The translations under genes were made by a program, and so were the position numbers. This document shows, one piece after another, positions 1 through 13,545 of a DNA stretch of 64,000 nucleotides. The stretch's first letter is position 1, and every line of letters starts with the position of its first letter. The notes beneath the pieces are model-generated. The model was not told the origin of the DNA, searched no databases, and saw nothing but the letters and a program-made list of their open reading frames with translations. The DNA comes from Isoetes taiwanensis (Eukaryota > Streptophyta > Lycopodiopsida > Isoetales > Isoetaceae), in NCBI GenBank assembly GCA_021234155.1, contig JAJEKV010000034.1, forward strand, positions 5,686,028-5,750,027, given 5' to 3'.

Positions 1-30
1 TTTTTATCTCTCCCCATCTGGTCAGCGCAT

Positions 31-150
31 CTCTCTCTCTCTCTCTCTCTCTCTCTCTCTCTCTCTCTCTCTCTCTCTCTCTCTCTCTCTCTCTCTCTCT
101 CTCTCTCTCTCTCTCTCTCTCTCTCTCTCTCTCTCTCTCTCTCTCTCTCT
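31..150. repeat. (CT)n microsatellite, about 60 units
   Basis: An uninterrupted CT dinucleotide run of 120 bp. Its right edge is directly joined to LINE copy 1, which starts in the middle of the endonuclease domain. The array therefore looks like the upstream half of the integration site rather than part of the element. Confidence 0.97.
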
Positions 151-3100
151 GGATATGATATGCTTTATGGAGACCAAAGAACATGAGTTATATCGCTACC
201 TATGATACTGTGGATTTGAGTTAATTTGTACAAGAAGAAGTAAATGATTTGGAACAACAGGATAACGGAAACGGTGGGCTGGCATGTTATGTAAGACAAA
301 GATACAAGGCGGTGGTGATGTATTAAACGGGATAAAATGGGCAATATATGTGGTTGAAGATAAACGGTTTACAAACGTAATACTATTTAGCCATTTGTTA
401 CTTTGCTCCAAGACATCAAAAAGTATACAAGGAAACAGATGCCTCACGGGATGATCCTTTTTGGAATTGAACAGGACATAATGTATTTTCAAAAGAAAGG
501 GGAAGTAATTTTAGCTGGAGACTTTAATGGCGGGATGAGGTGATAGACAAGCAAAGCAATCTATCTGAGACATACATGACCCGCTCTCGGTTAGAGTATA
601 TGGACAAGGATGAACTGATATCTAATGGGTGGAATAGACAATCACAGGATCACACCATTACCAGAACTGGTCGGTTCCTTTTGACCCTTTGCTGTAGTGC
701 TAACATGATGATATGTAATGGATTGGATAGATTCCCTGGGACGGAGAGGACTACGTGTAGATCCAGGAGCATTGTTGACTATATTATAATGGCAGATCAA
801 ACATTACATCATATCACAGAATTTCAGGTTATGGAGGAACAGCTAGAATCGGATCACTGCCCGTTGAAGCTCACAATGGATATCAATACACCAGATTGTC
901 AGATAAAGGAAATAATACAGCAAGGATATTGTCTTAGACCTGGTTTGAAAGATTGCTACAGGGCTAAGCTGGAGCAAGATCTGGAATCCATTAAGTGGGG
1001 ATGCGGACTTGTCAATGGCTAGCAAGCAATTATGTGATACGCTTTCAAAACCGCCAAAGAGGTTTTTACCTCTAAGCGTGCTCGGAAAGGGCTACCGTGT
1101 AATGCATGGTACAACCAAGCTTGTAAGGAAGCAAAAGCTCAATGGAGAAATAGCCATGGCATGGTAAAAGAATATTATAGAAAAGAATATAGAAAGATAA
1201 TTCGGCAAAAGAAAAGGCAGTTTACTTATCATAAACAGAGTCTCGGCAATGACTACCTATTGGAACCCAAAAGTTTTTGGAACATAATCGCTAAGAGAAG
1301 AGAAAAAAACAGAATTCCCTTTGTTGTCGGATGTGCTTTGGAAACATGTATATAATCTCTATCATGATCGGAAGGGAATTCCGATTCTATCCACTATAAC
1401 AGATCAAACTTATTGATTTCAACAGAAGAAGTAGCGGATGGCATATCACGTTTGGCAAACGGTAAAGCCAAGGATCTTCAAGGTCTTTGCGCGGAACATA
1501 TCAAATGGGCAGGGCCCAAAATCCATCCTATTATTTCAGATCCGTAATCCAAAGCAAGTGTCACAAGGAATGCCTCAACAATGGCAGATTAATCGGGTGG
1601 TACCAGTGCATAAAGGTGGTGCAGCGGGGGAAATTAATAATTACAGAACAATACTGGTAAGTGGCTTGTTAACAAAGTTGCTGGCATCTATTTTGGAGAA
1701 GAGAATTAGTATGTGGGCGGAGAGTAATCACAAAAGATCAGAAACACAGGCAGGTTTCCGTGCTGGAAGATCCACGATGGATCATTTATTAGTGCTCAAA
1801 TCAATATTTGACACAGTTAAGGGGACTAAGAAGCCTGCATATGTAGCCTTTGTGGATTTTAGAAAGGCCTTTGATAGAGTGCCTAGACCTAAATTGTGGG
1901 AGAGATTGGAGAAATTAGAGGTGCCAGAACAATTACGGGCAGCAGTGCAAGTATTATATGAAAAGGTATTGATACAGCTTTCCTTTCCCCTCTCTGTAGA
2001 AAATCCAGAATATATTGATAGCAATATGGGGGTCAAGCAGGGCTGCCCAATGTCTCCCACTCTGTTTGGATTGTTCATTGACAGTCTTGAGGGCTGGTTA
2101 CATGACAATTGCCCAGAGGGGACAGATATTCTGGCTATGTGGTACGATACTAATGTATATCGATGACGTAGTTATTTTTGCCGCATCACCGAACACATGC
2201 AGAAACATTTAGATGGTCTGGCCCGCTTCTGTGATACCACGGGAATGCAAGTGAACTTGGATAAGACGAATATCATGACAGTAGGGGCACTTAAACAGGA
2301 ATTATTTCAATATAAGGGAGCTCTGGTGAATACCTGTGATTCCTATAAGTACTTGGGGTTGATTTTCCACAGGAACCATAGATGGAACATGTGCATACAG
2401 CAGAGAATCGATGGGAGTTATAAGGCTCTTTATGCTATGCAGAGCCTATGCCGAGAAGCACACATTTATGGTCTTGGTCACTTAAGCGTAAACTTTTTGT
2501 TTCACTAGTGCAGTGTAGCATTATATGGCGGTGAGATATGGGGGCCCAGCCTCTCCACGGGGATTATGGGATGATTTAGAGCAAATTCTAAAAAGAAATT
2601 CATACGCCTTGAGATAGGGGTAAAAGCTCGAGACTCCATATCAAATGATGTTAATGAATGTGGGCTTATGCCTTTAGAAGGAGAAGCGTTAGTCGATGCA
2701 TTAGATACCTGAAAAAGTGGATACCATGGACAAACACAAGACTCCCTCACAAGGCCCTTTTGGTTAGCAAGGATAAAGGATGGTTTCAAGATGTTGTAAG
2801 ATGGCTAAGGAAGTGGGATATTGTTGGCGGGGAGGCACTTACGGTAGGCAATAACTTGAGACAATGGGTTTTGGTAAGGTATACAAGAAGATGTGGTCTC
2901 AACCTAAAAAAAAATGATTCTATACAGGCAAAGCATGAATCCTAGTTTGGGAATAGCCAAGTACCTACATGAGAACATCTCTATAAAGAAAAGGCATGCA
3001 ATAGGACGAATACGCCTTAGCTCGCATCATTTGGGAGTGGAAACCGGTAGATGGGGACATGTTATCCCTAGGATGGAGAGATATTGTAAGATTTATGGGA

Positions 3101-3330
3101 AGAACAAATAGAAGATGAAGAACATGCATTGCTTCATTGTAGTGCTTATCATGCATTAAGAGCACAACATGGGATTAATGCCCAAGATCTTTGTACCTTC
3201 TTTACCTTGGGAGGAGATAAGATTGGGGCATATATATTAGAATTGATGAGATGTAGAGAGAATTGTCCAAGAGATTGAATAACATTATAGAGGATGATAA
3301 TATGTTGAGTGAGAGTGACGAAGTTAGATG
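151..3330 (+). pseudogene. LINE ORF2 remnant (endonuclease + RT + C-terminal finger), copy 1
   Basis: Endonuclease motifs are visible: GDFNG near 520 and ESDHCPL near 850, the latter being the SDH catalytic motif of APE-like nucleases. An RT segment is open from 1438 to 2166, with QAGFRAGRS, the catalytic block VDFRKAFD and the block GVKQGCPMSPTLFGLFID. The YxDDV region falls at a frameshift around 2150-2170 (YIDDVVIF in another frame). The thumb region with YKYLGL and NHRWN lies at 2340-2400. The C-terminal part after 2510 is spread over three frames and ends near 3330. At least five frameshifts are needed to follow the protein, so it is a dead copy. On the family's known mechanism the product would be cytoplasmic and would carry out target-primed reverse transcription. 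Confidence 0.88.
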
Positions 3331-11715: not shown

Positions 11716-11820
11716 CTGTCCTGCTGCCCGCTATTAGCACTGTAGCAACCTGTGTCACCACCACTATAGCAGATCGAGCAGTTTGATAGAGCCCTCAGAG
11801 GCCCAAACAAGCGCCCAAAC

Positions 11821-11984
11821 CTGTGTGTGTGTGTGTGTGTGTGTGTGTGTGTGTGTGTGTGTGTGTGTGTGTGTGTGTGTGTGTGTGTGTGTGTGTGTGT
11901 GTGTGTGTGTGTGTGTGTGTGTGTGTGAGAGAGAGAGAGAGAGAGAGAGAGAGAGAGAGAGAGAGAGAGAGAGAGAGAGAGAGA
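11821..11984. repeat. Compound (GT)n–(GA)n microsatellite
   Basis: About 107 bp of GT (11821-11927) then about 57 bp of GA (11927-11984). On the minus strand this is (CT)n, the expected 3' tail/target of LINE copy 4, followed by (AC)n which abuts the 5' end of LINE copy 3. The two minus-strand LINEs are thus head-to-tail through a microsatellite. Confidence 0.97.
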
Positions 11985-13545
11985 TGAAATGAAATTTATT
12001 ATTACGCCTTCGAGACCGCCAGGCCTATGAGACGTTTACATAGTACAATCAAAGTCATAAAATAAATCATCCAGTGCATCTTCTGAAAATAACACACTGG
12101 GCTCCTCTACATCGATCTCCTCCACATTTTGTTGTTTCAATTGTTCCTCTCTATGTTTGAGAATCTCAACAATACACCCTCCAATACATGAACCTGGATA
12201 CTGAAAAAAATCACTAAGTGAGGTAGCACTGATTCCATACCTTCCTCATGTATCAGAATAGGCATCACATAAGAGCAAAACATGAGCCTCATCCTCCACC
12301 ACCCCTCCCGGGGGATTCACCTCTATTATAGGTATATATGCCATGTGCGTTCCTTAGGTTGCCAAAAAACCCATTGTATACGACAGTTCCATATGAAAAA
12401 CCCTTTGTATACGACTACATTATTTGTAAAAGAATGCAGCCCATATCATATATTTGCTTGCCCAAAACACTTTTACTTGACAACCCCTTCCATACATATA
12501 CAATATCTCTATTATTTTATATAATATATATTATCATAGTCATATCATATTACCACAGAATCCCCAACAGTAGAAGCTCACAAAAAATGATGGACCCTTA
12601 CAGTATGAATACGAATCAAACATTGGCTCAACCACACTCCCTCTGGTATCCATACGGCATTCAAACTATTAAAACCTTATATTTTTCTTATGTATACGGT
12701 ACTAGAGAGGCAATAAAAAAGCCCATTTGGTGCACTCACATGTTTCATACCCCATAATCTAGATGAACCCCCCGGGCCACCCCTGCATCATATATTTTAC
12801 AATACCTAAGATCATGTGCAATGTCTGCCCATCTCCCAACCTCTACACCAAGTCGGTATGAAGTTAACCGGATTCTAGCAATTGCTTGCCTGTGTTTCAC
12901 TGATATGGGCTCCCTGAGATATTGTGCTTCGTGAAAAGAGGGATTCACGTGAGATATATAATATCCTTTCGTTACGGCCGGCACGTTCCATGATTTTTTT
13001 AGAAAATTCGTCTTAACCCAGCTTTCAATATCCTTTTTGTGCATCCCTAATTCCTCAATATACATCCCCCATTTCAAAAGACATCTATTAACATCCGCAT
13101 ACCATCCCTTATTCTTGGTTTCTTCTAGAGCAAGTCTGGGCAAACTGTTGATTGGCATATCATACAAGACCTTGCACACATAGCATAACAGTGTGCAGAG
13201 AGCTTCAGCCTCAAGTGACATCATCCCGCACTCTACTAACATCATGTCATAAGGTGTTCGCATCTTAGTACCCAGTTCAGTATGAAAAAATTTCTTTTGT
13301 ATCTTTTCCACTTTTTTCCATCTGTCATTAGCAAGGCCGGGCCCCCAGACTTCACATTCGTAGAGCACCGCAGTTTGCACAAGCATTTTGTAAAGCATGC
13401 GCTTCATTCCAAAATTCCAAATATCAGTACTTACACACTTTCTTTGCATAGCATGTAACGCCTTTAGGCCAGCATTCACTCTATGTTCAATAGCTTGATT
13501 CCAATTAGGGCTCTTATCTACATTCAAAACAAAGTTTAAATTGAA
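11985..13545 (-). mobile_element. APE-type LINE copy 4, 5'-truncated, split by a MITE
   Basis: Minus-strand LINE truncated in the RT thumb region at about 13545. It carries the ORF2 C-terminus, a 3'UTR with the GGCC-type hairpin (12009-12033) and the tail ATTTCATTTCAT joined to (CT)n. The C-terminal finger is interrupted by a 470-bp transposon at 12307-12776. Unlike the other junctions, its 5' truncation point is not in a microsatellite. Confidence 0.9.

Follow-up and report, generated by a model that had tools for sequence, protein, structure and literature searches.

Are the dinucleotide arrays that adjoin long interspersed nuclear elements (LINEs) in the lycophyte Isoetes taiwanensis the DNA into which these elements insert, or are they made by the elements themselves? 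This question is raised by a stretch of 64,000 bases of contig JAJEKV010000034.1 (positions 5,686,028 to 5,750,027, here called the window), whose first 13.5 kb contain five LINE pieces with perfect dinucleotide arrays at their junctions. A preliminary description of the window had proposed a microsatellite-targeting LINE in a plant. The arrays proved to be perfect and to lie where this description had placed them, and the junction observation was confirmed in the window as well as in samples from the whole genome. We consider it probable (roughly 0.85) that the LINE inserts by target-primed reverse transcription and that it prefers polypyrimidine arrays, namely (TC)n/(GA)n and related ones. 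This preference is strong without being absolute; about a tenth to a quarter of the sampled ends lie in ordinary DNA.

Junctions sampled across the genome

The assembly (1,658,258,908 bases in 1,110 contigs) was searched by similarity to the second open reading frame (ORF2) of the LINE. Here, 62 places were scored among 50,525 first-look candidates, and the junctions played no part in the choice. One place was the window's own copy (L001) and two on contig C1039 near 2.845 Mb were merged, which left 60 copies. Of these, 57 had a readable 3' end (L009 is cut, L010 and L100 have no end). No related loci were found in viral contigs and phages.

In the 57 readable copies, a conserved stem-loop followed by ..ACATTTCATTTC precedes the TC array at the 3' end. 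The array directly follows the element with at least eight units in 41 copies and with at least five in 45, and the remaining ends carry shorter TC, (CCCT)n or nothing. All copies read have an (ATTTC)n tail and no L1-style poly(A). A second sample was chosen by the stem-loop alone, which has 262 exact matches in the genome and 0 in a reversed control. Among 100 listed of the 262, the first 40 not already sampled were read for 110 bases downstream, revealing (TC)n of at least eight, five and three units in 13, 21 and 29 cases, respectively; many matches lie on small unplaced contigs, and the pairs L124/L134 and L136/L137 are near-identical. C/T runs of at least 16 bases were present at 44 of 57 ends in the first and 23 of 40 in the second sample, in comparison to 0.64% of 18,648 background windows.

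For the 5' side, 49 copies were read, and 42 were placed (all but L016, L029, L030, L108, L109, L118 and L119). These calls, as well as the label "truncated", are a reading of the junction sequence by eye, aided by BLAST. An array of at least (TC)5 adjoins the element in 32 of the 42, with a short additional sequence separating the two in a few (L021, L022, L104 and L113); two ends follow a LINE with (TC)3 or (CCCT)n, and eight lie in other DNA. Furthermore, a 5' start motif with 40 genome matches, versus 1 in the reversed control, provided 34 new ends besides 6 already sampled. At least (TC)5 stands upstream of 24 of these 34, or 24 of 27 without a different, unrelated tandem repeat in which the motif also occurs and which accounts for seven of the ten misses; the other three misses display (TC)4 or a C/T-rich run. 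GA arrays of at least five units were found upstream of 0 of the 34 motifs, and none of at least six units across the 20 loci and 20 windows read.

Tabulated over these samples, most copies elsewhere carry (TC)n at both junctions. The expectation that most truncated copies would be preceded by CT held narrowly, as 6 of 11 5'-truncated copies adjoin TC (L006, L009, L019, L022, L023 and L107).

Target DNA or product of the element

In 38 copies both ends were compared, excluding in addition L009 and L010 (no 3' end) as well as L020 and L027, whose arrays are short or CCCT and come after a LINE. TC was present at both ends in 30 copies, only at the 3' end in three, only at the 5' end in none and at neither end in five (p=1.1e-4). 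Thus, the status of the 5' end generally matches that of the 3' end, which is what insertion into the array as target DNA would predict. On the far side of the 32 5' arrays stands a LINE in 19 cases, a Harbinger-like terminus in five, a repeat resembling a short interspersed nuclear element (SINE) in three and other DNA in five. The far side is non-LINE in 13 of 32, or in 12 on a safe count that sets aside L003, where a LINE-like stem-loop was seen by eye. At L004, the upstream LINE stands beyond a SINE-like repeat.

These counts bear on the possibility that the element itself makes the arrays, its (ATTTC)n-(TC)n tail having grown by slippage of the reverse transcriptase or by slippage after insertion, so that a 5' array would be the tail of the upstream copy. 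We regard this as unlikely. It would account for arrays that are long, perfect and rare elsewhere, for an ATTTC tail that is already TC-like and for the 19 of 32 5' arrays that do follow a LINE; in moths and butterflies, RTE elements have reportedly given rise to families of microsatellites (PMC2887409). However, it does not fit the 12 or 13 arrays with a non-LINE far side, the agreement of both ends copy by copy and the locus L028, whose outer arrays border non-LINE DNA. The order at this locus is other DNA, (TC)25, a full LINE, (TC)75, a LINE truncated near the endonuclease (of which about 2 kb were not read), (TC)72 and other DNA, and the 546 bases past (TC)72 contain no LINE match. Here, two LINEs of the same direction split one array between non-LINE flanks, which fits two insertions into a pre-existing array. 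Just before the LINE, a unit of about 110 bases is duplicated on either side of (TC)73 (L039 joined to L028); further upstream follow about 230 bases that match no LINE, and beyond them lies a LINE piece of opposite direction.

The rarity of the arrays was determined in 20 blindly chosen 3-kb regions, of which 15 kb of 60 kb read N. The 45,000 readable bases contained 0 dinucleotide arrays (TC, GA, AC, GT or AT) of at least eight units, and a single one, (GA)8, lies between 14 and 64 kb of the window. The whole window contains 121 overlapping exact matches to (CT)8, versus none across 100 shuffles. A further alternative is random insertion without any preference of the endonuclease, in which copies survive only in harmless microsatellites. 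The minority of copies in other transposable elements or ordinary DNA would agree with it, but survivors should then be found mostly in the far larger harmless space of transposable elements, C/T runs of at least 16 bases occupy less than 1% of the background windows, and the fixed orientation needs a mechanism. We therefore consider random insertion very improbable. As to orientation, once self-matches are set aside, all 15 upstream and all 18 downstream LINE protein neighbours point the same way, and head-to-tail stacking is seen in the genome as well as in the window.

A constant orientation would also be obtained if unrelated LINE contigs had been joined at (TC)n during assembly, and Nanopore data are prone to errors in dinucleotide arrays. 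None of the arrays read is longer than about 210 bases, and Nanopore reads underlie the published assembly (PMC8566536). Furthermore, the arrays border many different elements as well as other DNA, and five copies that have no array at the 3' end have none at the 5' end either. It is unlikely that the CT runs are an assembly artefact, and false joining we hold to be barely credible.

Several observations weigh against insertion into arrays as target DNA. Strict specificity is not seen: no array is present at 6 of 57 3' ends (L013, L015, L072, L085, the diverged L089 and L098), at 10 of the 40 stem-loop-chosen 3' ends and at 8 of 42 5' ends. Five of the 11 truncated copies are without TC (L002, L013, L024, L102 and L120), and in L002, L024 and L120 it stands only at the 3' end; at the 5' end of L024 lies another repeat, which may have inserted later. 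Within the window, the 5' end of the LINE copy 4 (~13527) and both ends of copy 6 (~60290-61312) lack a microsatellite. Target-site duplications are unreadable in arrays, and none was convincing in five non-array copies. Covariation of the stem-loop, counted by hand as the MAFFT alignment was poor, was not significant (141 of 150 pairs, shuffle mean 136, maximum 143). Finally, long arrays are rare in the background, which suggests that array length may partly arise after insertion. In such a mixed model, a short TC target may have been used and then have grown.

Overall, an array on both sides and one fixed orientation were found, which is the anatomy of a microsatellite-targeting LINE. For insertion into the array by target-primed reverse transcription, this anatomy suggests the following course. 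Every targeted copy read has TC downstream of it on its sense strand, which makes (GA)n the expected priming strand. The endonuclease would nick the GA strand, and this purine strand would prime reverse transcription, leaving targeted copies that end with TC on the sense strand. The 3' end of the RNA, ..AUUUCAUUUC, could pair with the GA primer through its AUUUC tail, whether or not UC units follow. The next landing site would then be the array that remains 3' of the new copy, by which head-to-tail stacks would arise. More tentatively, the LINE might renew its landing pad by leaving or regrowing (TC)n, the arrays being a shared habitat of the LINE and of SINE-like and Harbinger-like elements, and parasites might build and maintain much of the microsatellite landscape of this genome; we regard this extension as possible, yet doubtful.

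The LINE pieces of the window and their class

The window begins with 29 bases unlike the 3' end of the copy-1 LINE, followed by a (TC)60 array (30-150, plus strand), the 5' flank of copy 1 (151-3426, plus). This copy is 5'-truncated at the endonuclease start, contains many frameshifts and ends with ..ACTTCACTTC, its 3' stem-loop lying at 3381-3411 (plus). A (TC)42 array (3427-3510, plus) separates it from copy 2 (3511-7971, plus), which has an apparently intact 5' end (GGGCGATGGC..ACTAGGGC), broken ORF1 and ORF2, a 3' stem-loop at 7918-7946 (plus) and (ATTTC)4 as 3' terminus. After copy 2, a (TC)20 array (7972-8012, plus) is flush with piece 3 (8013-8272, plus), 260 bases from the C-terminal part of ORF2. 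Piece 3 is fused at 8272/8273 to the inverted copy 5 (8273-11820, minus; copy 3 in the preliminary description), which has an apparently intact 5' end and lost its 3' end. In copy 5, ORF1 runs from 11715 to 10798, followed by a break and the endonuclease/reverse transcriptase frame from 10408 to 8216. For copies 2 and 5, the call of an intact 5' end is the presence of the 5' start motifs. Twin priming was considered as origin of the inversion at 8013-11820 and rejected, as the order of the pieces does not fit.

The 5' end of copy 5 starts at a compound array, (TC)29(AC)53. Of this, (TG)53, which reads (AC)53 on the strand of copy 5, adjoins copy 5 (11822-11927, minus), and (GA)29, which reads (TC)29 on the strand of copy 4, is flush with the 3' end of copy 4 (11927-11984, minus). 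Copy 4 (11985-13527, minus) is 5'-truncated, carries its 3' stem-loop at 12005-12034 (minus) and ends with ..AATTTCATTTCA, which runs into (TC)29. The related copy 6 (~60290-61312, minus) lies inside a copia gag and serves as an internal control without microsatellite.

Flush starts at (TC)n ends are thus seen for copy 1 (151), copy 2 (3511) and piece 3 (8013), and the 3' ends of copies 1, 2 and 4 enter (TC)n, as previously described. Other readings had to be adjusted. The LINE at 8013 does start at the end of a CT array, but is only a piece of ORF2 fused to an inverted copy; copies 1 and 4 are truncated, whereas copies 2 and 5 appear intact at their 5' ends; and the minus-strand copy does adjoin a (GT)n/(GA)n array at its 5' end, but has lost the other end. 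The argument that truncated ends abutting CT identify the array as target, and not only as tail, is insufficient within the window, since for two of the three arrays the upstream copy could have supplied the TC units as its own 3' tail; the genome samples support the conclusion. Where the proteins of copies 1, 2 and 5 can be aligned, they share about 28-49% identity, so these are not recent duplicates and several lineages have the same habit.

Judged by their sequence, the elements are APE-type (apurinic/apyrimidinic endonuclease), two-ORF retrotransposons without long terminal repeats (non-LTR). A reverse transcriptase was identified by PF00078 (E 1.3e-31 and 7.4e-32) and an APE-like endonuclease by PF03372 (31.7 bits, cut-off 24.5) and PF14529 (31.4, cut-off 27.4; 24.2, below the cut-off, in a second run). 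The modest fold model of the endonuclease (mean pLDDT 63) is nearest to the L1 endonuclease, with the telomere-specific TRAS1 endonuclease at rank 8, and a sequence search of this domain alone against the PDB matched no endonuclease. The ORF2 profile matches the R2 reverse transcriptase (E 3.8e-25) and no L1 reverse transcriptase at E<0.1; a single ORF2 sequence matches both, R2 scoring higher. R2 itself is not known to have an APE endonuclease. The ORF1 profile matches the RNA recognition motif (RRM) part of human L1 ORF1p weakly (E 3.2e-4) and no Pfam family. Truncation at the 5' end together with a conserved 3' end, features of APE-type non-LTR retrotransposons, is present, and ORF2 is unbroken (1,101-1,117 amino acids) in 5 of 30 loci. 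Scans of the window with Rfam and for tRNAs gave no matches.

Copy 4 harbors a 470-base insert (12307-12776) with inverted ends CCCGGGGG(A/G)TTCA and an 8-base duplication CCACCCCT, which resembles a small hAT-type element. Compound (TC)n(AC)n, in that order, follows LINE 3' ends not only at 11822-11984 of the window but also at L007, L011, L024 and L081.

Related systems and other elements at the arrays

Kibi, a Tx1-group LINE of fish, reportedly targets (TC)n and would likewise be an APE endonuclease LINE in a pyrimidine dinucleotide microsatellite. In contrast to these fish elements, the quillwort LINE has a lycophyte host and an ATTTC tail with its own stem-loop, uses polypyrimidine arrays broadly and is heavily stacked. 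TRAS1 and SART1 are APE LINEs in the telomeric repeat of insects, and thus likewise occupy a simple tandem repeat, differing by the telomeric repeat and the insect host. Such telomere-repeat LINEs are the subject of the part consulted of PMC7265360, and microsatellite targets are named in the title of Kojima and Fujiwara (2004). Togen is (TG)n-specific and some HERO families are microsatellite-specific; as far as the excerpt of PMC4640811 goes, they are tied to clades with a restriction-like endonuclease, whereas the quillwort LINE is APE-type. In plants, 91% of the L1-CS elements of Cuscuta europaea are associated with the satellite CUS-TR24, according to passages of PMC8091179. L1-CS is likewise a plant LINE lineage preferring a tandem repeat, its target being a satellite monomer with TTCTA/TTTCAA sites and not a dinucleotide array. 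The passages found of two Isoetes genome papers contain no report of a microsatellite-targeting LINE, and neither do the matches listed from the literature searched, which did not extend to subscription papers and Repbase reports.

Microsatellite-targeting LINEs have been reported in animals. Here, a large plant lineage combines an APE endonuclease with a single orientation of insertion, and it is apparently recent given the 5 of 30 loci with an unbroken ORF2 frame. It represents a natural system for studying the origin of sequence choice in an APE endonuclease, the spread of simple repeats and the possible convergence of unrelated transposons on a single safe harbour.

A second group at the arrays are Harbinger-like DNA transposons of about 4.6-4.7 kb. 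Their terminus TGCGTYGGCCACATGCT has 199 genome matches (control 0), and among 100 listed of these at least five inverted pairs are 4.64-4.69 kb apart. Of three fragments queried against Pfam, one contains Myb_DNA-bind_4 (Myb/SANT) and two have no match. A GAVDGSH-like motif inside the element is presumably that of PIF/Harbinger transposases. A script places these termini beside arrays that also border the LINE in 7 of 48 cases downstream and 5 of 32 upstream, with further adjacency seen by eye at L074, L095, L118, L127, L128 and L140. Termini with GGCCACATGC inward stand beside (TC)n at L012, L014, L018, L019, L027, L030, L086, L090, L091, L107 and L110.

SINE-like repeats, which are perhaps moved by the LINE, adjoin the same arrays at L004, L005, L025, L026 and L111. 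Two short types carry (TC)n at one or both ends, SINE-A (L004 and L025) and SINE-B (L005 and L026). A related 3' stem-loop followed by (ATTCT)n was observed at L062 (~2230-2330), there in ordinary DNA, and upstream of L003, perhaps a sister lineage or a SINE with another tail.

Further along the window, a lone ORF1-like frame (16145-16666, minus) is related to the LINE ORF1, with no ORF2 match beside it, and palindromic units are repeated around TTCTCGACTCGCGAGTCGAGAA at 14500-15500.

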